Positions 11,823 to 61,600 of a stretch of 64,000 nt of DNA are shown here, one piece after another. The stretch covers positions 140,999 to 204,998 of the forward strand of contig NW_020312026.1 in the NCBI RefSeq assembly GCF_003144115.1. Direction: 5' to 3'. A program made the position numbers and the translations under genes. This DNA is from Tilletiopsis washingtonensis (taxonomy: Eukaryota; Basidiomycota; Exobasidiomycetes; Entylomatales). Position 1 is the stretch's first letter. Each line of letters opens with the position of its first letter. A model generated the notes under the pieces. It worked only from the letters and a program-made list of their open reading frames with translations, had not been told where the DNA came from and searched no databases.

Positions 11823-12389
11823 TCACTCCTCCTCGCGCCTGCGCTTCTTGTCCTTGCCGCCAGTGCCCGGCGCATCCTTGCGCTTCTTCTTCTTCTCCAC
11901 CGTCGGCGTGCCCGCAGCGCTCTCGGCATCCGCCGTGCCCTCCTTGCTGGCGCGCTGCTGGCCCTGCGAGCTCGACGCGGCGTTGGCAGCAGCTGCAGCG
12001 GCCGTAGCAGCCGCAGCCTCGGCACGCCGGCCCTCGTTGGCCTTCAGCTCCAGGCTGCGCGTGTACGTGGCCGAGCTGGTGCTGAAGAGGCGGTCCTCGA
12101 TCGGCACATCGGCGCCCAGGCCCGAGGCGGCCGCCGCGGCAGCGTTTGGCCGGCTGGGCCCGACCTTGAGGTACGAGTCGAAGCCCTTGACGATGTTGCC
12201 GCCAGACGCGGCCGTGGCGGCGAGGTAGGAGCCCTCAAAGAGAAAGATCTGCGACTCGAGGTCCGTGAGGGTGCGGTCGATGGTGCGCTTCTTGGCCAGG
12301 CCGGCGCGCAGCGCGCGCTTCGTCGACTCGTAGCGCTCCTTGGCCTCCTCGAGCGAGCCGGGCAGCGACGCCGGCGCGGCAGCTGGCAT
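11823..12389 (-). CDS. EAF6: EAF6, NuA4 histone acetyltransferase subunit
   Basis: Intronless, 188 residues. Residues 12-65 match the Eaf6 core: a coiled-coil helix (YESTKRALRAGLAKKRTID), the diagnostic DLESQIFLFEGSYL block, then GNIVKGFDSYL. In yeast, Eaf6 is a shared small subunit of the NuA4 and NuA3 acetyltransferase complexes. The remainder is an Ala/Ser-rich linker and a very basic tail (EKKKKRK and KDKKRRREEE) that could act as nuclear localisation signal or DNA contact. The ATG at 12389 was chosen because the homology begins just after it; the frame stays open upstream without similarity. The tail is longer than in yeast Eaf6 (about 113 residues). Head-to-head with the gene at 12716. 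Confidence 0.88.
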   Translation of the reverse strand: MPAAAPASLPGSLEEAKERYESTKRALRAGLAKKRTIDRTLTDLESQIFLFEGSYLAATAASGGNIVKGFDSYLKVGPSRPNAAAAAASGLGADVPIEDRLFSTSSATYTRSLELKANEGRRAEAAAATAAAAAANAASSSQGQQRASKEGTADAESAAGTPTVEKKKKRKDAPGTGGKDKKRRREEE

Positions 12390-12715
12390 GGTGTGCGCGG
12401 CGCAGGTACGATACGCGATGCAGGAGCGGGGCAAGCGAGCGAGCGAGATGCTGGTGGGTGGTGGTGGTAGGTCGCCAAGGAGCGGCGCGCGCGCACACGT
12501 GACGCGTGCTGGCGCCGTGGCTGGCTGATGCCCCTGTCCATCCGCCGAGCGCCGCCCGGGTCGGTGCTTCGCGAGCCAAGCGCGCTGTCCTTGAGACCAA
12601 CACAACCCCGCACTCTCGCGCGTGTCGTCCGGCCGTCCGACGCCGGCGCCATCCACCACCCAAGGCCCGCTCTTCTCACGACCTGCTCCATCTCACGCAC
12701 CTCACGACCCCCGCC
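12390..12715. promoter_or_regulatory. bidirectional promoter region
   Basis: 326 nt between the ATGs of EAF6 (leftward) and the DUF4045/GAR-transformylase gene (rightward). It must contain both promoters. No TATA-like element stands out; pyrimidine-rich stretches occur on the side leading into 12716. Confidence 0.5.
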
Positions 12716-15700
12716 ATGTCCTACTCACCGCCCCCCGACGCCGCCGCGCCGCTCTCCTCCTGGGTCGCCACGGTGCGCTCGGGCGCCTCGCACACCGGCG
12801 CCGGCATGCCCGCGTCGCAGTCGCGCCAGGAGCTCGAGGACGAGGTGCAGCGCAGCCGCGACGAGCGCGCCCGGCGCCGCAGCCGGCTCAGCGGCGGCAG
12901 CCAGCGCAGCAGTGACGAGCGTGAGTGAACAGTGCCGGATGCACCGGAAACGGGCCTCGGCGGCGCTCACACACGTCATCCAGCTCCTACATCCGCCACG
13001 ACGCCTCGCGGTGCAGCACTGCTTGCACGCTACGGCGGTGTCTCGGGCCCGACCGGCACCGCATCCATGGCCTCGTCCGGCGCCCCGACGTCGCTGGCCA
13101 GCTTCATGGGCGGACGCGCGACCGGGCCACGCCTTGGCAAGCTGGCAGGCGATGGACGCGGACCGCCGCCCGAGGCTGCCGATGCCGACAGTGCACCGCG
13201 TGCGCTGCCCGGAATGACTCAAGTCGGGCCGCGCGGCGGCATGGCCGGCATGCTCGAGGCTCGCAAGCGCGAGATGGCTGCCGGTCGCCCGCCGTCGCCC
13301 GACAAGACGAGCGTGCGGCCGACATCGCCTGTCAGAGAAGCTGCACCTCGCGCGGCATCGCCTGTCAAGGAGTGGGAGGCGCCACGTGCTGCCTCGCCCG
13401 TGCGGCCTACGCAGGCTCGCGATCTGCCGCGCGCTGCTTCTCCAGTCCAGGCAGCTCCAGCTCCAGCTCGCCTGCCTTCGCCCACTCGGCGCGACACTCT
13501 CCCGACTGGCGGCCGGGCGGCCTCGCCGGTCCGAGCTCCTCGCGCATGGGACGAGCCTGTCAGAGCTCTGCCTGCAGAGCCCGTGCGCTCGTCGTCGCCC
13601 ACTCGCGCCTACTCGCGCTCCGAGCCTGCGCGTCAGATGTCGTCCACCCGGCCGCTCAGTCCGGCAAAGCCTCAGGACGCTCCTGCTTTAAAGTCGACTG
13701 GCCCTGACTGGGCCGCCACAGCAGGTCTGCCGCGCAAGGCCAACGCCGAGTCAGGAGCGCAGACGTCTCCGCTGCGCAGTCCTGCTCTGCCTGTTGGACG
13801 CGCGCCTTCTCCCCTCAAGGATGTGGCCAGAGGTCCGTCTCCGACGCGTGCGAGCTCGCTCAGAGATGCGCCCGTCCAGCGACCGCTCTCTCCCGTGCGC
13901 GCGCCGACGCAGCACGCGCCTTCTCCCGAGCGTGCACCTGTGGAGACCTCGCCGGCCAAGGTCGCCTCTCCCATGCGGCAGACCTCGTTTGAGCTCTCAA
14001 AGGGCCTCAACTCGCCCTCGCCGAAGCCATCGCCCGCCTTCTCTACGCCAGTGCCTACGTCCGCTGAGAAAACGCCGAGCGCGAGCATCACCCGTCTGCG
14101 CGGCCGCTCGATGGTGCAGCAGCGTCTGCGCGAAGCACAGGAGCGGGACGCTGCTGGCAGCGCTGCGTCGCCAAGCATCGAGCTGCCGGCGAGGAATAGC
14201 CCCGCCAAGACGCCATCCTCCGCAGCCAGCAGGTGGACGCCTCCAGCGCCGGCACAGGGCACGCCCACGCCTGCTGCGCCGGTGAAGCGCTGGACTGTCG
14301 ACACTGCCAGCACCGAGACGTCCTCGCCCGCTGCCAAGAAGCCGTGGGCGCCCGGAAAGAGCGCGACTGCGCTGCCGGGCATGGCATCTGGCGGACCCGT
14401 CTCACCGCCAGTGTTCGGCGCACCGCGGCCTCGCAGCCCTGTGCGCCCGACTGCGCTGCGCACAGAGTCAGATGACGCTGTGGCTGCGCCAGTCCGCCTT
14501 CCTGGCATGGGCGGGGCGCAGTCGCCGTTCAAGGCGCTTGAGCAGAAGGCTTCGTCTACCGAGTCGGGCGTCCTGGCACCGCTGACCGCCGGCAGGGCCA
14601 AGGGCCCGGCGAAGCGATCGCGCACGAGCGGCTCTACTGCTTCCGCCGCAACGGCGGTCCAGCCAGCAGCTGCCCCTGCTGCCCAGCCTGCTGCGGAGCC
14701 TGCTCCGATCTCGCACTTTATCGGCTCAGTGCCCGCCGACACCGATCCGTCGGTGTCGAAGCTGATCGGCACTGGGCAGGACACGTACGGCAGAATCGTG
14801 CCGTCGGACCGCATGGACATGGAGCGCTCAAAGATGAGCGTGCGAGAGGTGGAGGAAGGGCTGCGCTCCGGAGTCAAGGAGCTTGGCAGGGTGCGCGCGA
14901 CGGGTGGTAAGAGCATCGCGGTGCTCATCTCTGGCAACGGTGAGACTGCTTCGTGCGATGGCATCGATTCAGGCTAACGCGCGCCGGAACAGGGAGCAAC
15001 CTGCAGGCACTCATCGACGCCACGCTGATCGAGTCGACGGCGCTGCCTGGCGCATACATCTCATTTGTCCTCTCCAACCGCAAGGCCGCGTACGGCCTCA
15101 CGCGCGCCTCGACGTCCAACCCGCCGATCCCGACCGCCGTCTCATCGCTCAAGACGTATCAGAGCAAGCATCCGGGTGCGACGCGCGACGAGTACGACGT
15201 GGACCTGGCGCGCATCATCATTGATGCGCACGATGGGCGTGCGCCAGATCTCATCGTGCTGGCCGGCTTCATGCACATCGTCTCGCCGGTATTCCTCGCG
15301 GCTATGGGCCATGCTGGAGATGGCCGCAGCAAGGCGCCAGCCTGGGCGCCGGCGCGCCCCGTGCCCATCATCAACCTGCACCCAGCGCTGCCGGGCGCGT
15401 TCGACGGAGCGCAGGCCATTGAGCGCGCGTTTGCAGCCTTTCAGCGCGGCGACATTCGCTCGACCGGAGTGATGGTGCACGAGGTCGTCGCCGAGGTGGA
15501 CCGAGGCAGCCCGGTGCTCGTGCGTGAGGTGCCCATCGAGCGCGACGACACGCTGGCCTCGCTCGAGGAGAAAATTCACGTGCTGGAGCATCGCCTCATC
15601 GTCGAGGGCACGCGTGCGATGCTTGACCGCCCGCCAGTCGTGCCGCAGACCGACCACTCGGAGGAGCGCAACCCGTGGGCCAGCACGATCCGCGCCAAAT

Positions 15701-17496
15701 CGCCAGACAAGCTGCCTGCCCGGCCGATGGCTCCGACGCCAGACGCACTGCCCGCGCCTGAGCCGGAGAGCAGTCTTCGCAGCCCAGTTTCTCCCGGCAT
15801 CGTCCTCGGCACGACGCCGCCGCTCAGCGCTTCGGCCGGCAGCGGCACCGCGCCTGTGCCGCGCGCCCGCCGACGGACGCTCAGCCGGCCGAACAGCGTC
15901 TACGGTGGCGGGCCTGCTCTCGCAGACCTGGTCGAGCAGCCCGAGGCCGGCGGCGTGTCTGTTGCTGCTGCCGCCGCTCGGTGGGGCACCGCCGGCGCCG
16001 AAACTGGCCGCGAGACGCCCCGGAGCCGTCGCGGCTCGGGTGCTCGGCCGGTCACCATGTACGCCGGCGGTCCTCCGATACCTCAGGCCCCCGCGGCGTC
16101 ACTCACGCGTTCGGCCAGCGTGCTGAAGCTCGAGTCGGGCGCGCGCAAGCTCGAGGCGCTCGTCAACGGCACCGAGATCAGCTCGTCGCCGCTATCGCCG
16201 CCAGCCGGCCCGGCGAGTATGCCCTTTTCTCGCAGCCCAGCTCCGACGTCGACGCTCGTGCAACTGGCCATCCCATCGCAGCCTGCTCTACGCTTTGACC
16301 TGCAGTCCTTCGTTGCTGCCGAAGCGCGCTCGATGCGCTCGCCGCGGCAGGCGACAGAGAAGCCGCGCACTGTCAGTCTGGAGATGTTCTCCATCTCCAG
16401 CGCAGGCGAGACCACTGCGCTGCGCCCGGACGAGTACCACATTATGCACGAGTCCGAGCTGCTTGCGCTGGTGCACCGGCACAAGTCGTCCGACGGGCTC
16501 GTCGCCACGAGCGTGTTGGTTCGCGTCGGCCGTTTTGCCCAGCCGCAGGGCCTGGCGCTCGCCAAGCTTCAGCAGCTCGCCTCGCGCTACGCAGCCACGC
16601 CCGTGTACGTGCCGCAAGGCGCAGAGACAAAGGAGCTGGCCGAGACGCTCGGCCGGCCGCTCATCTCGCGGCAAGGATCGCGCGCGCACTGGGAGGAGGA
16701 GGGCACGACGCTGTACGAGTTGCGAGTTGAGGAGACGCTCGTGACCCTGGAGCAGCTCGACCTGGCCACCTCGAACCTCTGCTCGAGCTTCTCCTACATT
16801 GCCTCGGTGCTTGGCTCGCCCTTCGTCTGGCACGGACAGGGCACGGCCGCCGACGAGCGCAGCATCGCAACGAGCTTGCTCTCCGACCTCTACCCCAACG
16901 CGCTGCCTCTCGAGTACCTCGAAGGACAGGAGGACGAGATGTTCTGGGCCTTCTTCGACTCACTCACTCCGTACGCGTCGGCGAGTCACCACCGCCACCG
17001 CCCGCAACTCTTGGCGCGCGAGCGGCTTGCTCGACTCTACGAGGTTGGAGATGCAGGCGTGCAGCGCATCGAGACGCCGAGCGCCCATGCGTTGTCGGCG
17101 CAGGCGGTCCATGTGCTCGCGGCGCCGCTAGAGACGTACGTGATCGTGGGCGCGGATGCTCGTGGGCAGAGAGGCGCCATCAGCCTCGCGCTCGACCTCG
17201 CCGAGAGTCTCTCAAGCGCCGCCGTGCAGCGGCGTGCCGCGGGCTCAATGCGTCCGCCGTGCCACCTCGTCGTGCAGCCATCGAAGGCGCCAAGAGAGCT
17301 GCGGGCGCAGCTGCGCGCATGGGACTATGCTCCCGCCACGGCGTCCCACACAACGCCGGCGCCATCCCTCATGAACGTGGTCAACGCGTCTCAAGCGCGG
17401 GCGGAGCTTGCCCGCGCTGCCTTTGCGCCGAGCGACGTGGCCGAGCCGAGCTTCCTGCCTGTGGGTGTGCACCCGTCCATGCTGCCCTCAGCGTAA
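12716..17496 (+). CDS. ADE8: DUF4045 - GAR transformylase - gelsolin-like fusion protein
   Basis: Three exons (12716-12920, 12984-14939, 14993-17496), 1,554 residues. Residues 1-70 carry the charged helix of DUF4045 proteins (QELEDEVQRSRDERARRR). About 70-700 is disordered and rich in SP repeats (RAASPV, SPVR). Residues about 709-930 form a complete phosphoribosylglycinamide formyltransferase: the ISGNGSNLQAL loop, IVLAGFMHIVSP, the catalytic NLHPALPG (Asn and His), then GVMVHEVVAEVDRG with the second His and the catalytic Asp. This enzyme carries out step three of purine synthesis with 10-formyl-THF. After a second linker, about 1180-1554 resembles gelsolin repeats as found at the end of DUF4045 proteins (VSLEMFSIS, TSNLCSSFSYI, FVWHGQGT, MFWAFFDSL). 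Exon 3 runs from inside the enzyme to the stop without a break, and exon 2 runs from the DUF4045 part into the enzyme, so splitting into separate genes would need internal start and stop codons that are not there. Confidence 0.85.
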
Positions 17497-19747
17497 TCAT
17501 GCGATATTTCTGGACTCTGCTCTCTCGCTGTCTTCACCTCGTGCTCGATAGGGCCGAGGCTGGCCTAAGCACGCTATCTGACGCATCACCGGGCGAGCCA
17601 GTCACCGCTCACCGACAATGCAGCGAGGCTCTCCTGTATGCCAAGCAAAGCAGCGAGTTGGACCCCTCGTGGGCCGGGAGGGACAGTGCAGCGCGGGGAA
17701 GCCGGGCTGGCTTCACTTCGGGTTGGCCGTCGGCTCTGGTCCACGTGCGCTGCCAGGAAGCGGGGCGAGGAGGCGCCTTCTTGCTCGAGCCCCGTGCGGG
17801 ACCATGCCCGAAGCGAGCAACGGCATGCTGATGTGCTCTGCGGTGAGCTTCCGGTTCTCAGCGGACAGGTCGGAAGACACGCGGCCATGTCGGAAGCGAG
17901 AGCCGTGGCAGCATGCGCATGAGCGGGCGGCCCGGAGGCCGACGACATGCAGACCCAGCGCACAGGCAGGAGGGCGCGCGCACTCGGTGGCTGCTCACAT
18001 CTGCAGCCGCTGAGCGGAGCTGGCTGCCATCGCGAAGAACATCGCTGTGGCGCAGGTGCAGGTGTTGCGTCGTCAAATTGAGATCGCACATGCGCATGCA
18101 ACGTGCATCGCAGCGACTGCGAGCGATGGCGAGCAAGCTGCGCCTGGATGCCTTGCTCACATCGCTCGGGCAGGCGCGGCAAGGTGCTGCGAGAGTCTCG
18201 CCACGCTCGGAGGCGCCTCCGCACGCTCCCACGAGGCAGGGCTGCGCTACGGAGACAATCTGCGCTCGGCGAGCGGCGGCGAGCAGAGCAGCCAGCGACT
18301 AGCCTTGCGGAGCGCACGCGCTCACACGAGCCGCCGGCAGCGCCAGACCCCGGGGCCGACGGGGCAGCGCTGAGACCGCCGCTTGCGCCAGAAGCAGGGA
18401 TTTGCAGCGCAGCGAGTGGCGCGGCGAGGGCGCCGAGCGTGCTGCGTGTCGGAGGTGCTGGAGCGGGAGCACGGCGTGCGCCGCGTGCGATGGACGGCGA
18501 CGGCGGCGCGCCGGCGTGCTTGGGAGCGTGAGAGCAGGCGTGGATAGGCGTGCGGTACCGCAGCCCCGGCACTGCAGCTGCAGCTGGATGTTGCGCCTTC
18601 TCGCACGGTGCGGCAGAACGCTGCGCCAAAAGAAGTCAGGGCGCGGGGCGGGCGCATGAGCACGTGCGTGGCGCTTGCGCGAGACGATGCCAAGACCACG
18701 AGCGCACGTTCGCTCATGGGCGTCGCCTCGACGGCGGCGCGCCGCCTGTCTCGCACGCAGACGCCATGCTCCAGATTGGGAGTCCGCGTGCAGATCGCTA
18801 GTGCCATGTGCTGCATGCGCAGGTCTTGGCACGAAGGCTGCATGGCCCGGCCCCTCTGCGCCTGCGCCATGCCACCGCACCGAGCGTGCACCGCGCATGC
18901 GGCTCCGCACGCGGCGCATCAACAGAACACAGGCACGCGGGCGTGGCGCTGGACCCCTGGGGCACGCCGCCTGTGTGTGCGCGCGTCGCGCTGCCCCATG
19001 CAGCCGCGCGTGCCTGCGCCCGGTGCCGCTCCTCTCGCCGCAGAGGTGTCGAACGCCCTCCCGCAACCGCAACCGACGGCTCCTCGCTGCCCGAGGCGGC
19101 GGCATCCGGCCTGCGGCTTGAGGCTGCTCCCGCTCTCGCCGCCGCCGCCTCTGGCGCGAGAAGCTGCAATGCACACCCGGTGCGGCGCGCCGCGAGGCCA
19201 GCGGGTGGCGCGCTAGGCCTCCCGCCCGGCGTGCGCTCCCTCGGAGAGGCAGGACCCCTTGCTCGGCTGCTGCTCTGTCGATGTGCTGCGCCGCCGCCAG
19301 CGCCTCGGGCACCTCGGGCTGCTGCGTGAAATTGTCCCTGTCCTGCGCCCTGCGGCGCCGGCGGCCGGGCTCCCGCCCGCAGCGGGCCTGCGGCATTGCG
19401 GACGCTCCCGCCGCTTCGTGCCCGGGCGCGCCCCCGCGCCGCATGCCACCCAGAAGGAGCCACGGCGCACCAGAGACCGAGCCTGGCCCCGCTCCAGGGC
19501 CGCAGAGTGAACGTGCACGCTGCACGATGGCCAGCACGGCGCAATGGAGTGCAGCGTGGCGAGCGGAAAACTCGTGCGCGCGCCTCCGCGAGAAGGTCCG
19601 GCTGGGAGGAGTGCCGCCGCCGGCGCACCTGCGAGAGAGGCACACGCATCCGCCATCCTTCTCACCGGGCTGCGCAGAAGGATAAAGAGCAGCACCTGCG
19701 CGCCCGAAGCTGCCCTTTCCTCAGCAAGCCTCACCCCCTCCTTCGCC
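17497..19747. other. long gene-free interval upstream of PHO89-like gene
   Basis: 2.25 kb of very GC-rich sequence. Several long open frames exist (one of 448 codons on the minus strand, 18299-19645) but they are Arg/Ala/Pro-rich, share no family motif and look like GC artefacts. The only signals noted are a GATAAAG at 19681-19687 and two CACGTG hexamers at 17742 and 18661. Confidence 0.45.
19681..19687 (+). promoter_or_regulatory. TATA-like element (GATAAAG)
   Basis: Lies 66 nt before the PHO89-like ATG, in otherwise GC-rich DNA, at nearly the same distance as the CATAAAG before the gene at 957. Likely core promoter element; unproven. Confidence 0.3.
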
Positions 19748-21520
19748 ATGCCGGTCCTCAGCCAGTATGATTACATCTTCGCCATAGGCACTATGTTTGC
19801 GCTCCTTGACGCATTCAACAACGGTGCCAACGACGTCGCCAACGCCTGGGCCACGTCGGTGTCCTCGCGCTCGATCAGCTACCGCGGCGCGATGGTCTGC
19901 GCTACGGTCTTCGAGCTCCTCGGCGCTCTGACCGTCGGTGCCCGCACGGCCGACACGATCAAGAATGGCATCATCCCGCCGTCGACGTTCCAGGGCAACG
20001 CCGGCGTGCAGATGCTCGCCTTCACCTGCGCGCTCGCCGGTGCCTCGTCGTGGGTCATGTGGTGCACGCGCAACTCGGCCCACGTCTCGTCGACCTACTC
20101 GCTCATCTCGGCCGTCGCCGGTGTCGGTGTTGCCACGGCCGGTGCGCGCAACGTGCAGTGGGGCTGGAACAACGGCAAGGGTCTCGGTGCCATCTTCGCC
20201 GGCCTCGCCATGGCTCCCGTGTGCGCCGCAGCATTTGGTGCCATCATCTTCGGCCTCATCCGCACCATCGTCCACGTCCGCAAGAACCCCGTTCCGTGGG
20301 CCGTCTGGACTGCTCCCTTCTTCTTCCTCGTCGCCGGCACGGTCTGCGCCCTCTCGATCGTCTACAAGGGCTCGCCCAACCTCGGCCTCGACAAGCGCCC
20401 GCCGTGGTTCATCGCCTCGGTGTCCGTCGGCACCGGTGTCGGCCTCGCCATCCTCTCGGCCATCTTCTTCGTCCCGTGGCTGCACGCCAAGGTCATCAAG
20501 AAGGACCAGAACGTCAAGGGCTGGCAGGTGCTGACCGGCCCGGCGCTCTGGGCCACGCCCTACGCCACCGGTGACGCCGTCGCCAAGGTCCCCGACTACT
20601 CGGTCATCCAGCACGGCCCCGAGTCGGCGCGCAACAGCACCGACGACATCTCCGTCGACGACGAGAAGATCATGGTCGAGCAGGTCGCCGAGATCCGCCC
20701 GCTCAAGACGCAGAAGGAGCTCAACCAGGAGGCCGACGAGCGCGTCTACGCCAAGCTGCGCCAGAACAAGGGCGCCATCGGCTGGGCCATGCGCTACCTG
20801 CACGACCACCCCATGGGCCAGGGCGCCATCTACGAGACGCACAACCTGAAGCGCGCCGTGCAGCGCATCCCCGCCATGGTCGTCGTCGCTGCGCTCTACG
20901 GCATGCACTACGACATCCACACGGCGCAGGCCGGCATCGAGGGCACGCCCGAGGGCAACCGCATGGAGCGCGTCTACTCGCACGCGACCAAGTACCCCAA
21001 CGAGGTCGAGCACACCTACTCGTTCATCCAGCTCATCACCGCCTGCACCGCCTCCTTCGCCCACGGCGCCAACGACGTCGGCAACGCCGTCGCCCCCTGG
21101 GCCGTCATCTACTCGGCCTGGTCCACCGGCGACGCCGCCAAGTCCAAGCTCCCCGTCGCCACGTGGCAGATCGCCGTCGTCGCCCTCACCATCGTCGCCG
21201 GCTTCGTCTTCTACGGCTACAACATCATGCGCGTCATGGGCAACAAGCTCACCTACCACTCGCCCTCGCGCGGCACGTCCATGGAGCTCGGCGCCGCCAT
21301 CACCATCCTCGTCTTCTCGCAGTACAAGCTGCCGGTGTCGACCTCGATGTGCATCACGGGCGCCACCGTCGGCGTCGGCGTGCTCGGTGGCTACAAGGCC
21401 GTCAACTGGCAACGTGTGGGTTTGCTCGTGCTGTCTTGGATCGTCACGATTCCGATCGCCGGTATGCTGGCTGGTATCCCGATGGCCATCATCCTCAATG
21501 CGCCGCGCTTCGGCATCTAA
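19748..21520 (+). CDS. PHO89: Na+/phosphate symporter, PHO89 (PiT) family
   Basis: A single exon of 590 residues. Both halves carry the PiT signature: GANDVANAWATS at residue 26 and GANDVGNAVAP near 440, each within a hydrophobic bundle, separated by a hydrophilic cytosolic loop (about 255-370) rich in charged residues. Ten to twelve membrane segments can be traced. Known fungal members take up phosphate with sodium at the plasma membrane under phosphate shortage, usually at alkaline pH. The second-half motif SQYKLPVSTSMCITGATVGVG is intact, so transport is expected. The start at 19748 places the first membrane segment eight residues in; an upstream in-frame Met at 19544 would add 68 residues without similarity. 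Third-position C is extreme, suggesting strong expression. No intron, in contrast to its neighbours. Confidence 0.95.
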   Translation: MPVLSQYDYIFAIGTMFALLDAFNNGANDVANAWATSVSSRSISYRGAMVCATVFELLGALTVGARTADTIKNGIIPPSTFQGNAGVQMLAFTCALAGASSWVMWCTRNSAHVSSTYSLISAVAGVGVATAGARNVQWGWNNGKGLGAIFAGLAMAPVCAAAFGAIIFGLIRTIVHVRKNPVPWAVWTAPFFFLVAGTVCALSIVYKGSPNLGLDKRPPWFIASVSVGTGVGLAILSAIFFVPWLHAKVIKKDQNVKGWQVLTGPALWATPYATGDAVAKVPDYSVIQHGPESARNSTDDISVDDEKIMVEQVAEIRPLKTQKELNQEADERVYAKLRQNKGAIGWAMRYLHDHPMGQGAIYETHNLKRAVQRIPAMVVVAALYGMHYDIHTAQAGIEGTPEGNRMERVYSHATKYPNEVEHTYSFIQLITACTASFAHGANDVGNAVAPWAVIYSAWSTGDAAKSKLPVATWQIAVVALTIVAGFVFYGYNIMRVMGNKLTYHSPSRGTSMELGAAITILVFSQYKLPVSTSMCITGATVGVGVLGGYKAVNWQRVGLLVLSWIVTIPIAGMLAGIPMAIILNAPRFGI

Positions 21521-32810: not shown

Positions 32811-35800
32811 CTAGGCGCCGTTGCCGCCCCACGTCGTCTGCGGCGTCCAGAGGCCGCCCGGGAAGCCGCCGGAGCCTTCGAAGGCGGTGAGATAGTCGAA
32901 TGCGAGGTCGATGTTCTCTGGCTCTGCGCTCGTGGCGGCAGCAAAGACGCCTGCGCCATCCGGCCCGCCTGCGGCCGCCCACACGTCGGACGAGAAGCCA
33001 GCGAGCGGCGTCGAGGTCTCGACGATGCTGTTTGCTGCTGTCGCCACGGGCAGCGCATCGAGGCGCAGACCAGTGCCGAGCCGCGCATTGGCCAGTGACG
33101 ATGAACGGAGTGCAGAGCTGGCATCGGCCATGCTGAGCTCGACGGGCGACGCGAGCGAGCCGTTGACAGCCGGCAAGGCGTTGGCGGCGAGGACATCTGC
33201 GCTGGCGATCGTGGGCAGGTTGTCGTCCGAGCTGCGCTTCTTCTCGGGCAGCGCAGGCGCTGGTGGCGCCGGCTCCTGAGGCGTGCTGGCCTTGGGCTCA
33301 GTCTCGAGCGTGTCCTCGGCCTTGACATCCTCGTCCTCAGACGGCGCGGGCGCAAAGAGCTCCATGACGACGGTGCGCAGGTACGAGCCGTACGGGCCTG
33401 CCGCGCCGTTGCGGTGCGCAGGGGAGCGTCCGGCGCGCGCCAGGGCAATGGCGAGGCGCTTGGCGCGCGAGACGATGGCGTCGCGGTCGACCCAGGGATG
33501 CGTGGCCGGATCGAGCTTCGTGAGGCGCAGTGCGGCCAGAGCCGCCCACGTCGCCATGATGGCCGTCTGGTTGGGCGAGGACTCGAGCTGCTCCTGACTG
33601 ATGTCGTCCAGCAGCACGTCGATGAGCCGCGTCGCCGTGCTCCAGCAGTCGAGCGTCACGGGCGACGCCAGCTCCGTCGCGGGCCCGCTGCCGGCGTTGT
33701 ACTGCTCAAACGCCTGCAGAATGATGGAGTTGAGGTACAGCCTTGCGTGCTCGTAGTGCAGCATCGCCGTAGGACGCCAGCGCACGAGAAAGTCGGCCAT
33801 GGCGAGGCTCTGCACGCGCGCCTCGTCGGTGGCAGAGATGCACCAGCTGTCGCGCCAGCGCTCGAGATCAGCATTGGCCGTCTTGCGGTAGAGCTCCAGA
33901 CCGGCGATCGAGACTGCCACGGGTGCCGAAGGATCTGCATCGGCGGTGCGAGGCCGCAAGAGACTGCCGAGCGCCTCGTGGAGGAAGGTGTTGAACGCCT
34001 CCTCGTGCTGCGCGATGAGCCTGCGCAGCTGAATGAGCGCCACCAGACTGACGTCCTGCGGCAGCGCCCAGTCTGCACGGTGGAAGTTGGTCGCGACGCC
34101 CGCGATCAGGTCGTCCTCGCTGATAGTGAACGGCCGTCCCGTTTGCGCACTGAGCGTGCGATCGCTGATGAAGAGGCACATCCAGGTGCGCCAGCGGTTG
34201 CGAATGCGTCGGCGCAGCTGCTCCGAGTCCTGCAGGCTGCCGCTAGGCGCCACGCGGCGGTTAATGCCAATTTCGGTGGCGATGCGGCAGGCAAAGCCAA
34301 GGTATTGCCACGAGCGGTCGTCGCTGAGCCGCTGTGTCGGCTTGCCATAGAGCGAGAGCAGCAAGAAGGCTTGACTCAGCTCGACGGACTTGTAGCCGCC
34401 CAGCAGGACCTCGGGCACGAGTGTCGAGCGCCAGTGTCGCTCCATGAGCACGGCCAGCTCGGCGTCGCGAGGCGAGTCGCTCAGCCGAGCAGCAAACGCC
34501 GCAATGACGGTAGTGAGCAACGCGGAGCGGCTGCGCGTGTAAGACACGCTGTGCAGGAATGGATCGAGGAGATTGAGCAGCGGGTTGATGCGCGCGAAAA
34601 AGCTGCGGGCGGTAGGCGATCAGCGTGCTGCGCAGACAGAGCCCCAGGGCCGCACTCACATGTCGAACAGGTCACGCAGTTCCGACATCTCGATGAAGCC
34701 CAGCTCGACAGGATCGCCCTGCTCGACGTCAAGCTTGGAAGCAAACGGACTCTGGGTCCAGTAGTCCGGATGCGAAGCGCCCGCCTCCTGATCGTCATGA
34801 GCGCCGACGGATGCATCGCCATCGATGCGCAGACTCGCCGAGCCGTCCTCATTGGTCATGCGCGAGCGCGGTCTAGCAGCGCGCGCCATGCTCTTGCGCC
34901 GAGCGCTGAGAGCGGCATTGCCGGCCGAACTGCCTGAGGAGCCATTGCGCGCGGCCGCGGCCGTCAAGAGCGGACTGTCGCTGCCCGTCGCGTCCGTCTC
35001 GCCGGCCTTTGCGTCGTCGACGGCAGTGATCGGGTCGCTGCGACCCTCACTGCCCTCGCGCGGAGCAGCCACGCTGCTGGACGTAGGCGTGTCGCGAGCA
35101 CTGGCACGTGTGCGGGACTTGCCGCCGCGGTACTCCCACGCGCCTGCATCGCGAGTGCTGGGTGTCGTCGAGCCAGCCTCGAGCTCCGCCGCGGCCGCCG
35201 CAGGTCGTTCCAGGTCCGCCACCGCTGCTGCCGTAGCTGGCCCCACGCCCGCAGCGGCAGCAGCAACAAGGTTGAGCGCATCGACGCGCGCTTGGCTCTG
35301 CGCGCCTTCGCCGGCCGTGTAGCTACGCGAACGACCTGCGGCGCCGGGACGAGGCAGGCCAAAGGGCGGACTCATCAGTGTCCGCACGTTGCTGCTGGCG
35401 CGCAGCGTGCCGATGCCGGGCAGCGTCGGCAGGGTGCGGATCGGATGTTGCCCGCCTGCGGCTGCCACAAGATGGCTGAGCATGCTGGGACGTGAACGTG
35501 TGCGTGCAGGCGGAGAGACGAGGCCCATCGTGGCGGCGCCCGTGCTGCCCTTTTGCTCGCCGGCCTTGGTGGCTGCCATGCCTTCGCTGGCGTGCGCAAG
35601 CAGACGCAGCGGCGTCTGCAGGACGTCCTCGTCTTGCCCCTCGCCCAGCGCGTCCTCGTCCAGCTGGTCCACCTCAGCATCGTCCGACGTGCCCTCGGAT
35701 GCACTGCTCGACGGCACTGCAGCCGTCTCGTCGGCCTCTTCGCCCAGACGCGCACGCTTCGCGGCGCTGCCATACTCGCCGTCCTCCTTTTTCTGCGCCG

Positions 35801-49361: not shown

Positions 49362-51874
49362 ATGGTCGCCTCCTCAGCGCCGCGCACCATCTACGACAAG
49401 TGCTACGACGCCCATCTGGCGCACGAGCACGACGACGGCACCGCCATCCTCTACATTGACCGCCATGTGAGCTGCGCTCCACTGGCCACACTGCGCCGGC
49501 GGCCGGCATGCTGACCGCGCCCGCCACAGCTCGTGCACGAGGTCACCTCGCCGCAGGGTGCGTTGCCGCGCTCCGCCTCTCCTGCCCCACCAGCTGCTCA
49601 CAGCCTCGCACAGCCTTCGAGGGCCTGCGCAACGCCGGGCGCAAGGTGCGGCGGCCCGACTGCACGCTCGCCACGGTGGACCACAACATCCCGACCGTGT
49701 CGCGCAAGGCGTACAAGGACACCAAGTCCTTCGTCGAGCAGGCCGACTCGCGCACGCAGTGTCTCACGCTCGAGGACAACGTCAAGGAGTTCGGCCTCAC
49801 GTTCTTCGGGCTCAGCGACTCGCGCCAGGGCATCGTGCACATCATCGGCCCCGAGCAGGGCTTCACGCTGCCCGGCGCCACGATTGTCTGCGGCGACTCG
49901 CACACCTCGACGCACGGCGCCTTTGGCGCGCTGGCGTTTGGCATCGGCACGTCCGAGGTCGAGCATGTGCTGGCCACGCAGACGATTCTGCAGAAAAAGG
50001 CGCGCAACATGCGCGTGCAGGTCGAGGGCGAGCTGGCGCCGGGCGTGACGAGCAAGGACATCATCCTGCATGTGATCGGCATCATCGGCACGGCCGGCGG
50101 CACCGGGTGCGTGATTGAGTTCTGCGGCTCGACGATCCGCGCGCTCAGCATGGAGGCGCGCATGTCGATCTGCAACATGAGCATCGAGGCCGGCGCGCGT
50201 GCCGGCCTCATCGCGCCCGACGACATCACCTACGAGTACATCAAGGGCCGTCCGCTGGCGCCCAAGGCCGGCGCAGAGTGGGAGGCGGCAGAGAAGTACT
50301 GGCGCACACTGCCGTCCGACGAGGGCGCGCACTACGACGTCGACGTGCAGGTCAAGGCCGCCGACATTGCCCCCACCGTGACTTGGGGCACGTCGCCTCA
50401 GGATGTCGTGCCCATCACGGGCAACGCGCCTGACCCGAAGCAGGCCAAGGACGAGGCGCAGGCTCTGGCATGGACGCGCGCACTCGAGTACATGGGCCTC
50501 GAGGCCGGCACGCCGATGGAGAAGGTCAAGGTCGACAAGGTCTTCATTGGCTCCTGCACCAACTCGCGCATCGAGGACCTGCGCGAGGCTGCGCGCATCC
50601 TGCACGGCCGCAAGGTGGCGCAGGGCATCTATGCCATGCTGGTGCCCGGCTCCGGCCTCGTCAAGAAGCAGGCCGAGGCAGAAGGCCTCGACAAGATCTT
50701 CCAGGCGGCAGGCTTCGACTGGCGCGAGGCAGGATGCAGCATGTGTCTCGGCATGAATCCGGACCAGCTCTCGCCCGGCGAGCGCTGTGCCTCGACGTCG
50801 AACCGCAACTTCGAGGGCCGGCAGGGCGCCGGCGGCCGCACGCATCTCATGTCGCCGGCCATGGCTGCCGCGGCCGCGGTGACCGGATTCCTCACCGACG
50901 TGCGCCAGCTCACCTCGGGCGCCAAGGTGGGGCACGAAGCCGCCCAGCCCGACTTTGCCGTGCAGATCTCCGACCCCAAGTCGTACCTCACCGACAAGAC
51001 GCTTCCCCCGCCTGCGCCCATCACGCCGGCCATCGCCACCGACGAGGATGTGATTCGCGACGTGCCCGAGTCGCAGATCGCCACCGTCGGTTCCGGCGTG
51101 CAGGCATTCACCGTGCTCAAGGGCATCGCTGCGCCGCTGGAGCGCTCCAACGTCGACACGGACCTGATCATTCCCAAGCAGTTCCTCAAGACGATCAAGC
51201 GCACCGGCCTCGGCTCCGCGCTCTTCTGGCCGCTGCGCTACGATGCAAAGACGGGCGAGGCGGACCCGAGCTTCGTGCTCAACAAGGAGCCCTACACGCA
51301 GGCCAAGATTCTCGTTGTCACCGGGCCCAACTTTGGCTGTGGCTCGAGCCGCGAGCACGCGGCGTGGAGCCTGCTCGACTTTGGCATTCGCGCCGTCATT
51401 GCCGAGAGCTTCGGCGACATTTTCCGCAACAATCTCACCAAGAACGGCCAGCTGCCCGTGACGCTGCCGGCGGCGCAGATTGTGCGCATCAGCGAGGATG
51501 CCAAGGCGGGCAAGGAGGTGGCGGTGGACCTGCAGCGCCAGCAGATTGTGCTCGCCGACGGCACCGAGTATGCCTTCGAGACGCCCGAGTTTGTGCGGCA
51601 TTGCCTCATCAACGGCCTCGACGACATTAGCCTGACGATGGAGCACGAGGCGGCCATCAAGAGCTTCGAGAAGAAGCGCAGCGCAACGACGCCGTGGCTG
51701 GGTGAGTGGCGCAGCGCAAGGGGGCCGATGGCTACGGATGGGCGCAAGCTTTGGGGCTAACACATCGTCCCTCTCTTCTTCTCCTCAGACGGCTTTGGCT
51801 ACGCGGGCAAGCTGCAGCCGCTGATGGAGAAGGCCAAGGACGTGGCGAGCAAGGTGACGGGGACCGACTGGTAG
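49362..51874 (+). CDS. LEU1: 3-isopropylmalate dehydratase
   Basis: Four exons (49362-49466, 49530-49557, 49614-51701, 51789-51874), 768 residues, the normal fungal length with the bacterial LeuC and LeuD subunits fused. The large domain shows [57 protein letters not shown], the iron-sulphur ligands Cys in IGSCTNSR (about 357) and the pair in [10 protein letters not shown] (about 419-422), then [10 protein letters not shown]. The swivel (LeuD) domain starts near 540 with [14 protein letters not shown] and includes [13 protein letters not shown]. It isomerises 2- to 3-isopropylmalate in leucine synthesis, in the cytosol of fungi, using a 4Fe-4S cluster. All catalytic motifs are intact. Exon 2 is only 28 nt and encodes the VHEVTSPQ segment. 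Strong third-position C/G suggests high expression. Confidence 0.97.
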
Positions 51875-57301: not shown

Positions 57302-58691
57302 GGCGGGCAGGCAGGGGCGGGGCTGCTGTGGCTCAGCGCATGCAACAGCGCCGGAGACGTGCTGCGCGCAGCGGCCGCGAGGCGCACGTCTGGCGTTGGG
57401 CGCGGAGATGGAGTGCTGTCGAGGCGATGGAGGATGAGGCGCAAGACGGAGAGCGGCTCGAAGTCACAAGGCACAGCCAGCGCTCGCCCGGGTGGCCCGA
57501 GCGCGCCGGCAGGAGAGCGCGGCGGCGGCGTTGCTCGGCCGTGCAGCGCCGCCCGCTGGCACGGCGCCGCCGCCGCGAGACCCTGACTCGCCGCGCCAGC
57601 GCCGAGCGTGTGGCTTGCGCGGAGGCCCCGGACCGCGCCGAGCGAAGCAAGAAGGCCTCCTTCGTGCCATGGCCCATGCCAGCGGCTCGAGGCGCAGCAT
57701 CCAGCGGCTCACAGAGCTCATCATCCGCCTCGTGGGTGTCGCGCTGGACGCCGCCGCTCCAGCGCGAGCGTCGATCGTCGGCACAGCACAGCTCTCAGGC
57801 AGCAGCGTCGCCAGTGGGCCAGCGTGCACGGCGCACCAGAGAGGCGGCGCCAGGAAGAGGGCGGACCGTTGAGCTTCGGCTCTTGCTAGCATGGCTCGGC
57901 CGCCTGCTCAGCAAGCGCGTCGTGCAAGTGGCAGCGATGCTGCGCTGCGCTGCATCTGGCGTGGCCCGACAAGGCCGCTGCCCCACGGCGGGCCAAGCGG
58001 ACGTGCATGCGGGCGAGCGAGGCCTGATGGCCGGCGTGCAGCGTGTGGGGGAGGGAGCAGGTGCGGGAGCAGCACCAGCACCACGCCCGAGCCCGCCACG
58101 GCAGCGTCGCACCGCCGTCTGTCACCTCTGCGCCGCCACGGCGGGCTGCTTGCGTCTGCACGCGCGAGTGTGTGAGTGCCGCCAGTGTGCAGTCAGAGTG
58201 CACGCCAGGCAGGCAGCAGGCAAAGAGGGAGACGGGAGCCGTGGTGCTGGACGAGGCGCGCGCTGCACGTCGGCCAGGACCGGACCGAGGCGTGTCTGGC
58301 GCTGAGGCAACGGAGCAGAGGGCCGAGCACGGCGGCGCGGCGGAGTCGCGAGAGCTGCAGCGTCAGCACGAGGCGGCCGAAGGTGCGCTTCGCCTGCTGC
58401 TGCCCTCTCTCCCCGCATGCCGGCGGCTCAACGAGCGGAGCCGGAGCGTGCGCTGGCTGTGCGGCGAGGCGAGGCGTGGCAGGGTGCAGCGGCTGGCTGG
58501 CGCGCGCCATGCCTTGCAGACAGAGAGGAGCTGCGCCGCGGCATCCGGCGGCGTGCGGTGCTGGCAGTCGCGACCTCTCTCTGCTGTGCAGGGCGCAGCG
58601 CCGTGGCCACGCCCCGCCCGCGCAACTCCACCGGCTGCGCACCTCTCTTCCCCACCCTCTCCCGCTCCCTCTCCTCTGCACCCTGCCCAGC
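57302..58691. other. divergent intergenic region
   Basis: 1.4 kb between VPS34 (leftward) and KGD1 (rightward). Contains GC-rich open frames lacking motifs. The last 90 nt are strongly pyrimidine-rich and end GCCCAGC before the KGD1 ATG. No RNA gene seen. Confidence 0.45.
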
Positions 58692-61600
58692 ATGCTGCGC
58701 GCCCTCCCGCGCCGCCTCGTGCGCAGCGCCGTGCCGCCGCCGCCGTCCATGGCGCGCCTGGCCTCGCGCGCGCTCCACTCGGGCCTGCCCACGCGCGCCG
58801 CCGCCGCCGCGCCCCAGCGCCCCAACGCGCCCTCGCCCAACGACAGCTTCATCACGCCCACCAACGCCTACTACGTCGACGAGATGCGCCGCATGTGGCA
58901 GCAGGACCCGAGCAGCGTGCACGGCTCGTGGGCCACGTACTTCAGCGGCATGCAGGCCGGCCTCAGCAGCGAGAATGCCTTCCGCCCGCCACCGACGCTC
59001 ATGCCGCTGCCCATCGATGCGCCGCCCATCGACACGTCGTCGTACGAGGGCGGCTCGGCCGTCAACGACCACCTCAAGGTGAGGCAGCGCGCGCGCTCCT
59101 GCGGGCGCCGGTGGCGTCTGACCCCCCTCTGCTCCTCCAGCTGCAGCTGCTTGTGCGCGCCTACCAGGTGCGCGGCCACCGCATCGCCGTGCTCGACCCG
59201 CTCGGCATCCTGCACCCCGACCTCTCCGGCGACGTGCCCGCCGAGCTCACCATCGAGCACTACGGCTGGACGGAGAAGGACCTCGACCGCGAGATGCAGC
59301 TCGGCCCCGGCCTGCTGCCCAACTTTGTCGCCGCGGGCAAGAGCAAGATGACGATCCGCGAGGTCATCGACGCCGTGAAGCGCATCTACTGTGAGTGCAG
59401 CATGTGTGAGCCGTGCAGCGCGTCGCTCATTCCGCTCCCTCCAGGCGGCTCCATTGGCATCCAGTACGTGCACATTCCCGACCGCGAGAAGTGCGACTGG
59501 CTGCGCGAGCGCATCGAGACGCCGCAGCCGTTCAAGTACAGCATCGAGGAGAAGCGCACCATCCTCGACCGCCTGATCTGGTCGGACAGCTTCGAGCGCT
59601 TCATCAGCTCCAAGTACCCCAACGAGAAGCGCTTCGGCCTCGAGGGCGGCGAGTCGCTCATCCCCGGTGTCAAGTCGATGATCGACCGCACCGTCGAGCA
59701 CGGCGTCGAGTCGATCACGATGGGCATGCCGCACCGCGGCCGCCTCAACGTGCTGGCCAACGTGATCCGCCGCCCCATCGAGGGCATCCTGCACCAGTTC
59801 GCCGGCAAGACGGACGACGGCGAGGGCGGCGGCGACGTCAAGTACCACCTGGGCGCCAACTACGTGCGCCCGACGCCCTCGGGCAAGAAGGTGGCGCTGT
59901 CGCTCGTGGCGAACCCGTCGCATCTCGAGGCCGAGGACCCTGTCGTGCTCGGCAAGACGCGCGCGCTGCAGGACTTTGCCAACGACAAGGAGCACACGAC
60001 GAGCATGGCGCTGCTCATGCACGGCGACGCCGCCTTTGCCGGCCAGGGCGTCGTGTACGAGACGATGGGCATGTACAACCTGCCCAACTACGCCACCGGC
60101 GGCACGATCCACATCGTCGTCAACAACCAGATCGGCTTCACGACGGACCCGCGCTTTGCGCGCTCGACGCCGTACCCGTCGGACATTGCCAAGAGCATCG
60201 ACGCGCCCATCTTCCACGTCAACGGCGACGACGTCGAGGCGGTGACGTTTGTGTGCCAGATGGCGGCCGACTGGCGCGCCAAGTACAAGAAGGACGTCGT
60301 CATCGACCTCGTCTGCTACCGCCGCCACGGCCACAACGAGACGGACCAGCCGAGCTTCACGCAGCCGCGCATGTACGAGGCGATTGCCAAGCAGGAGACG
60401 ACGCTGACGCAGTACGCGCGCCAGCTTGTCGACGAGGGCAGCTTCACGCAGAAGGACATTGACGAGCACAAGAAGTGGGTGTGGGGCATGCTCGAGGAGG
60501 CGGCCGAGAAGAGCAAGGACTACCAGGTCGGCGAGCGCGAGTGGCTCTCGTCGGCGTGGGACGGCTTCCCGACGCCCAAGGAGCTGGCCGAGCAGATTCT
60601 CGACCACAAGGACACGGGCGTCGAGAAGGAGCGCCTCGAGCACATTGGCCACGCCGTCGCCTCGTACCCCGAGGACTTCAACGTGCACCGCAACCTGGCG
60701 CGCATTCTCAAGAACCGCGCCAAGACGATCGACGAGGGCGAGGGCATCGACATGTCGACGGCCGAGGCGCTCGCGTTCGGCGCGCTTGCCATGGAGGGCT
60801 ACTACGTGCGCGTGTCGGGCCAGGACGTGGAGCGCGGCACCTTTTCGCAGCGCCACGCCGTGCTGCACGACCAGAAGAACGAGTCGATCCACGTGCCGCT
60901 GAAGCACCTGAGCGAGGACCAGGCGCCGTTTGTGATCTGCAACTCGTCGCTGTCCGAGTTCGGCACGCTCGGCTTCGAGCTCGGCTTCAGCATTGTCGAC
61001 CCCAAGAACCTGACGATGTGGGAGGCGCAGTTCGGCGACTTTGCCAACAACGCGCAGTGCATCATCGACCAGTTCATCGCGTCGGGCGAGCGCAAGTGGC
61101 TGCAGCGCAGCGGCCTCGTCATGAACCTGCCGCACGGCTACGACGGCCAGGGCCCCGAGCACTCGTCGGGCCGCCCGGAGCGCTTCCTGCAGCTGTGCGA
61201 CGACCACCCCTTCATCTTCCCCAGCCCCGAGAAGATGAACCGCCAGCACCAGGACTGCAACATGGCCATCGTCTAGTGCGTGGTGTTGAGCGCGCGCGCC
61301 TTTCTGCCCTGATGCTGACTCGCTGCTCTCCCTAGCTGCACGACGCCCGCCAACGTCTTCCACATGCTGCGCCGCCAGGTGCACCGCGACTTCCGCAAGC
61401 CGCTGATCAGCTTCTTCTCCAAGTCGCTGCTGCGCCACCCCGAGGCGCGCTCCAAGCTGGCCGACATGCTTCCCGGCACGGGCTTCCAGCGCTACCTGCC
61501 CGAGCAGCACCTTGAGAGCACCTCGGAGAAGGACGGCCTTGTTGCGTGCGTGGGACAGGGCTGTGTTGGCGCCAGAACATGCTTGCTCACACGTGGCTCG

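Follow-up and report, generated by a model that had tools for sequence, protein, structure and literature searches.

Gene structure at the locus

Within a 64,000-nucleotide stretch of the Tilletiopsis washingtonensis genome (contig NW_020312026.1, positions 140,999 to 204,998; hereafter the window, with positions counted from its first letter), the plus-strand gene at 12716-17496 consists of three exons whose joining gives an open frame of 1554 residues in the gene model. Its predicted product, called here the fusion protein, comprises a long N-terminal region, a glycinamide ribonucleotide (GAR) transformylase, a low-complexity linker and a tail that resembles the repeats of gelsolin and villin. 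The ADE8 or PurN step is the third reaction of de novo purine synthesis, and the interest of this gene lies in the possible cytoskeletal placement of a purine step. The features of the gene, each with the evidence for it, are as follows.

12716..12920, plus strand: exon 1, with the start ATG and codons 1-68 of the fusion protein (gene model; highest-scoring of the six frames in synonymous codon choice)
12921..12983, plus strand: intron 1, 63 nt, GTGAGT...CAG, with a CTCAC motif (sequence reading, gene model)
12984-14939, plus strand: exon 2, whole (gene model)
12984..14911, plus strand: greater part of exon 2, Ser/Pro/Ala-rich and of low complexity, lacking any credible match in Pfam; the part next to the enzyme is more ordered (Pfam, PDB, codon scores)
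14912..14939, plus strand: end of exon 2, first strand of the GAR transformylase, SIAVLISGN (gene model, PDB match, PurN score)
14940..14992, plus strand: intron 2, 53 nt, GTGAGA...CAG, with a CTAAC motif, within the first GAR motif (sequence reading, PurN score gain on splicing)
14993-17496, plus strand: exon 3, whole (gene model)
14993..15642, plus strand: first part of exon 3, rest of the GAR transformylase (Pfam, PDB, PurN profile, predicted fold)
15373-15375, plus strand: Asn848 (alignment with PurN relatives)
15379-15381, plus strand: His850 (alignment with PurN relatives)
15499-15501, plus strand: Asp890 (alignment with PurN relatives)
15643..16383, plus strand: low-complexity linker from the enzyme to the gelsolin-like tail, exon and frame unchanged (open frame, composition, codon scores)
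16384..16671, plus strand: stretch like DUF7904 (PF25480), just under the curated cut-off (29.6 bits versus 30, E 6.4e-7)
16540..17199, plus strand: gelsolin- and villin-like repeats that align with the later villin repeats (PDB 9jus, villin, E 4.9e-9; PDB 1d0n, gelsolin, E 1.2e-4)
17494..17496, plus strand: stop codon TAA (sequence reading, gene model)

The fusion of enzyme and tail is the best-supported part of this model because, past the first strand of the enzyme, both lie with the linker in one uninterrupted exon; their shared open frame contains no intervening stop, so enzyme and tail are one protein unless transcripts end early. Both introns start with GTGAG and end with CAG, and their CTCAC (intron 1) and CTAAC (intron 2) sequences are presumably branch-like motifs. 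Intron 2 interrupts the first GAR motif between SGN and GSN, and joining the end of exon 2 to exon 3 raised the score against the NCBIfam PurN model from 124.7 bits, the value for the unspliced exon 3 part and below the equivalog cut-off of 150.1, to 155.9 bits, which passes it. This gain supports both the intron 2 splice and the assignment to PurN. The first splice is not unique, because four donor and acceptor combinations, including donor 12912 and acceptor 13016, keep the frame open, and some residues near position 70 are accordingly uncertain. With that reservation, the initial annotation's proposal of one spliced gene with three exons holds, and a single transcript likely encodes the whole protein.

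The enzyme, the tail and the N-terminal region

Pfam placed Formyl_trans_N in the full protein with an expectation value (E) of 5.6e-32 and 111.4 bits, relative to a cut-off of 26.1, and human GART was the best match of the enzyme among PDB sequences (9.1e-23). Rival family models gave 28.4 bits (PurU) and 26.1 bits (fmt) on the spliced domain, and these scores below 29 bits rule out a deformylase or a tRNA formyltransferase. Asn848, His850 and Asp890, which we take to be the catalytic set, were compared with 82 fetched PurN relatives (2 viral_contigs loci plus the best 80 of at least 505 confirmed genome_contigs matches); the same residue was present in 82/82 at the first two positions and in 81/82 at the third, where the remaining protein has a gap. 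When the exon 3 part was modelled from an alignment of 13 rows, the predicted fold reached a predicted local distance difference test (pLDDT) value of 89.8, and among the 50 rows shown of a comparison with PDB folds, GAR transformylases occupied ranks 1-25, followed by deformylases and ArnA. A decayed copy is ruled out by the PurN score, the catalytic residues and the predicted fold, and the earlier description of a complete GAR transformylase with its Asn-His-Asp set is borne out. Judged from its sequence, the enzyme is very probably active and would perform the ADE8 step.

Relative to bacterial proteins, the enzyme carries an insertion of ~17 residues directly 5' of the catalytic strand. Its closest fetched relatives among the matches listed come mostly from Chloroflexi-type metagenome-assembled genomes (six of the eight loci L003-L010), and identity to the best of these proteins was 48% in the best segment, 52% over the exon 3-part query A1 and 50% in a wider alignment. 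The enzyme and the closest Chloroflexi-type proteins also have an HPALPG motif in common, and the HPALPG/HPALHG form occurs in 9 of the 82 fetched proteins. These matches, from a comparison set of viral_contigs and genome_contigs proteins, prompted us to consider a transfer of the enzyme from Chloroflexota; alternatively, fungal Ade8 may be of ancient origin.

When the last 416 residues were compared with PDB sequences, villin 9jus matched over ~220 residues and gelsolin 1d0n also matched, at the values listed above. At E <=10, 18 of the 22 matches were named gelsolins or villins, and the other four had E >=0.55. A reversed tail (412 residues, compared with 416 in the forward query) gave nothing better than E 1.3 in PDB, a control that rules out chance similarity. 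The gelsolin-like C-terminus of the initial annotation is confirmed by these PDB sequence matches, accompanied by a DUF7904 score just under its cut-off. Pfam reported no villin headpiece in the full protein, in which it recognized the enzyme and DUF7904 only. The DUF7904 score fell in longer queries (29.6, 27.6 and 25.9 bits, and 24.7 in the full protein). No tail relatives were found among 3 viral_contigs and 32 genome_contigs pattern matches, and a DUF7904 search of one bacterial genome and 14 controls gave no match anywhere, a result that is uninformative.

The N-terminal region of ~700 residues has a high content of Ser, Pro and Ala, and a count over 705 residues gave 34 Ser/Thr-Pro pairs. 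No Pfam family was matched by either of two exon 2 queries that were almost the same; among four N-terminal pieces, no match came from exon 1 or from two pieces of exon 2, and the stretch just 5' of the enzyme had only TrcR, at the chance level of E 0.1. Exon 2 found nothing among PDB sequences at E <=1. The initial annotation had placed DUF4045 here and described the enzyme as nested inside a DUF4045/gelsolin protein. DUF4045 had no Pfam match at E <=10 in the two exon 2 queries, the four N-terminal pieces or the full protein, in searches whose HMMER filters may conceal a low-complexity family of this kind. Because the DUF4045 label lacks support, so does the nesting that depends on it. What stands of the earlier picture is a fusion of enzyme and tail preceded by a long open region of low complexity; of the domains it had named, Formyl_trans_N was found and the gelsolin/villin similarity appeared in PDB, with DUF4045 and the Pfam Gelsolin family unmatched.

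Because long chance frames are common in DNA of 67% G+C, the value for the window, the gene was also scored by synonymous codon choice, trained on seven Pfam-supported stretches of other window genes (2339 codons). The gene's own frame was the best of six in 6/6 segments, with z values of 3.0 to 7.6 relative to a base-composition null. Exon 1 scored +0.48, the enzyme +0.16 and the linker +0.07, in comparison with training stretches that ranged from 0.07 to 0.59. In three reference stretches, assumed rather than proven to be non-coding, the best frames scored -0.19, -0.30 and -0.61. The N-terminal part of exon 2 has its open frame and a weak codon signal in its favour, which make its inclusion in the protein probable but short of certain.

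Readings of the fusion

The combination described here appears to be new and its parts are known: what looks like a real but unusual domain pairing, with the enzyme intact. We consider it fairly likely that an active GAR transformylase is covalently fused, through the low-complexity linker, to gelsolin/villin-like repeats. Several observations weigh against this proposal. The gene and protein are known here from sequence alone, the exon 2 segments (-0.14 each) and the tail (-0.01) score below all seven training stretches in codon choice, and exon 2 barely exceeds the best of the presumed non-coding frames. Homology nevertheless settles that the tail is coding. The DUF7904 match, with its low E value, is 0.4 bits short of the curated cut-off, the Pfam Gelsolin family was unreported at E <=10 in exon 3, the tail pieces and the full protein, and a single-sequence model of the tail had a pLDDT of 37.6, too low to use. 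Because that family was unreported and the tail fold was not reliably predicted, the tail is called gelsolin-like and is not certified as a family member. In addition, the two tail repeats aligned with villin 9jus have Phe and Ala, respectively, opposite the Asp that we take to be a calcium ligand of gelsolin repeats; actin severing of the classical, calcium-regulated type should therefore not be presumed.

If the fusion protein is made, flexible linkers would let the GAR transformylase work as usual, and the gelsolin-like module could set the position of the enzyme, on actin or at the septum or cortex. Purine enzymes are thought to cluster transiently in purinosomes, and the positioning of these clusters is hard to test; should the fused form be the cell's main product, this natural covalent link between a purine enzyme and a cytoskeleton-type module would provide a genetic handle on whether it matters where the purine step is placed. 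Tethering of the enzyme to actin, septum or cortex is a doubtful proposition at present. The fuller scenario, in which a scaffold associated with actin or the septum carries purine step three, purine supply is localized at or coupled to sites of cytoskeletal growth, and this protein is the only ADE8 of the cell, is unlikely when taken as a whole.

The alternative that survives best accepts the fusion and disputes the tethering only. It holds that ADE8 became joined to a gelsolin-like gene, that the halves keep their ordinary work and that the tether has no function, which has a chance not far short of even and is somewhat likelier than functional tethering. The low-complexity stretch between enzyme and tail would ease independent function, and none of the measurements here points to coupling. 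Linker and tail are open and best-scoring in the frame of the gene, however, so that both halves seem to be maintained, though this does not require coupling. In that case the gene would illustrate how a housekeeping enzyme can be taken up into a large protein of low complexity.

A second alternative, which we regard as rather unlikely, is that transcripts differ: with a start inside the gene (Met679, Met681 and Met686 are candidates) or with early poly-adenylation, they would yield a shortened enzyme that stands nearly alone, and the complete fusion would be a minor product. The presence of these three in-frame Met codons 26-33 residues 5' of the enzyme is compatible with such a start, as is the weak coding signal upstream of the enzyme, but enzyme and tail share a single open frame with no stop between. 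It is improbable that a normal ADE8 lies elsewhere in the genome and that the fused copy is secondary, given that no decay is seen in the catalytic residues, the PurN score or the predicted fold. An assembly join or mis-drawn exons uniting unrelated genes is very improbable, for although long open frames arise by chance at high G+C content (one of 433 codons runs antisense over exon 2), enzyme and tail occupy one exon and splicing of exon 2 to exon 3 restores the PurN motif and score.

Neighbouring genes and known systems

Several frames of the window match fungal or eukaryotic families in Pfam, including a Fungal_trans factor and a NuA4 subunit. The neighbours and other genes noted are as follows.

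11826-12692, minus strand (frame from stop to stop): PF09340 NuA4 subunit, presumably Eaf6-like, oriented divergently from the fusion gene
19511-21520, plus strand: PF01384 phosphate transporter, located downstream of the fusion gene
32814-34619, minus strand: protein with a fungal-specific transcription factor domain (PF04082)
49460-51757, plus strand: aconitase
58028-61273, plus strand: dehydrogenase E1/transketolase-type protein, which we take to be 2-oxoglutarate dehydrogenase-like

The aconitase and dehydrogenase E1 genes are of the tricarboxylic acid cycle type and lie ~6 kb apart. A CACGTGAC site is present at 12496-12503, in the short intergenic region between the NuA4 subunit and the fusion gene. 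The sequence TGACTC, presumably the yeast Bas1 motif, is not enriched in the window (25 sites versus 37.2 expected), and no such site is listed between 12390 and 12716. Searches of the whole window with Rfam at the gathering threshold and with a tRNA scan using the bacterial code found nothing.

Among the literature matches listed, in a coverage that leaves out most subscription journals, no paper was recognized as describing a GAR transformylase-gelsolin fusion, and the two that name both the enzyme and gelsolin are medical and, from the parts available, look unrelated. A fungal gelsolin-domain protein, the subject of Mamun et al. 2020, reportedly acts in assembly of the contractile actin ring in filamentous fungi and is titled Pezizomycotina-specific. 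This protein resembles the one described here, by title alone, as a fungal gelsolin-domain protein linked to the actin ring and septum, and its title names no enzyme. The later repeats of villin and gelsolin are similar to the tail over ~220 residues; the tail differs from them in the replaced Asp at the presumed calcium ligand in two aligned repeats, and in the headpiece and Gelsolin family that Pfam left unreported.

On the enzyme side, stand-alone fungal Ade8 (Magnaporthe MoAde8, yeast Ade8) and bacterial PurN are alike in enzyme family, Asn-His-Asp residues and predicted fold, as tested against PurN and human GART, and in comparison with them the fusion protein adds the gelsolin-like tail and long regions of low complexity. 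The available part of one source states that MoAde8 contains a Formyl_trans_N domain, and that yeast has Ade5,7 and Ade8, in contrast to the one trifunctional protein of mammals (PMC9502316). The animal trifunctional GART, represented by PDB matches named Trifunctional purine biosynthetic protein, likewise holds a GAR transformylase within a larger polypeptide; as far as the available part of the source extends, its partners there are other purine enzymes, whereas the partner in the Tilletiopsis protein is a gelsolin-like module.
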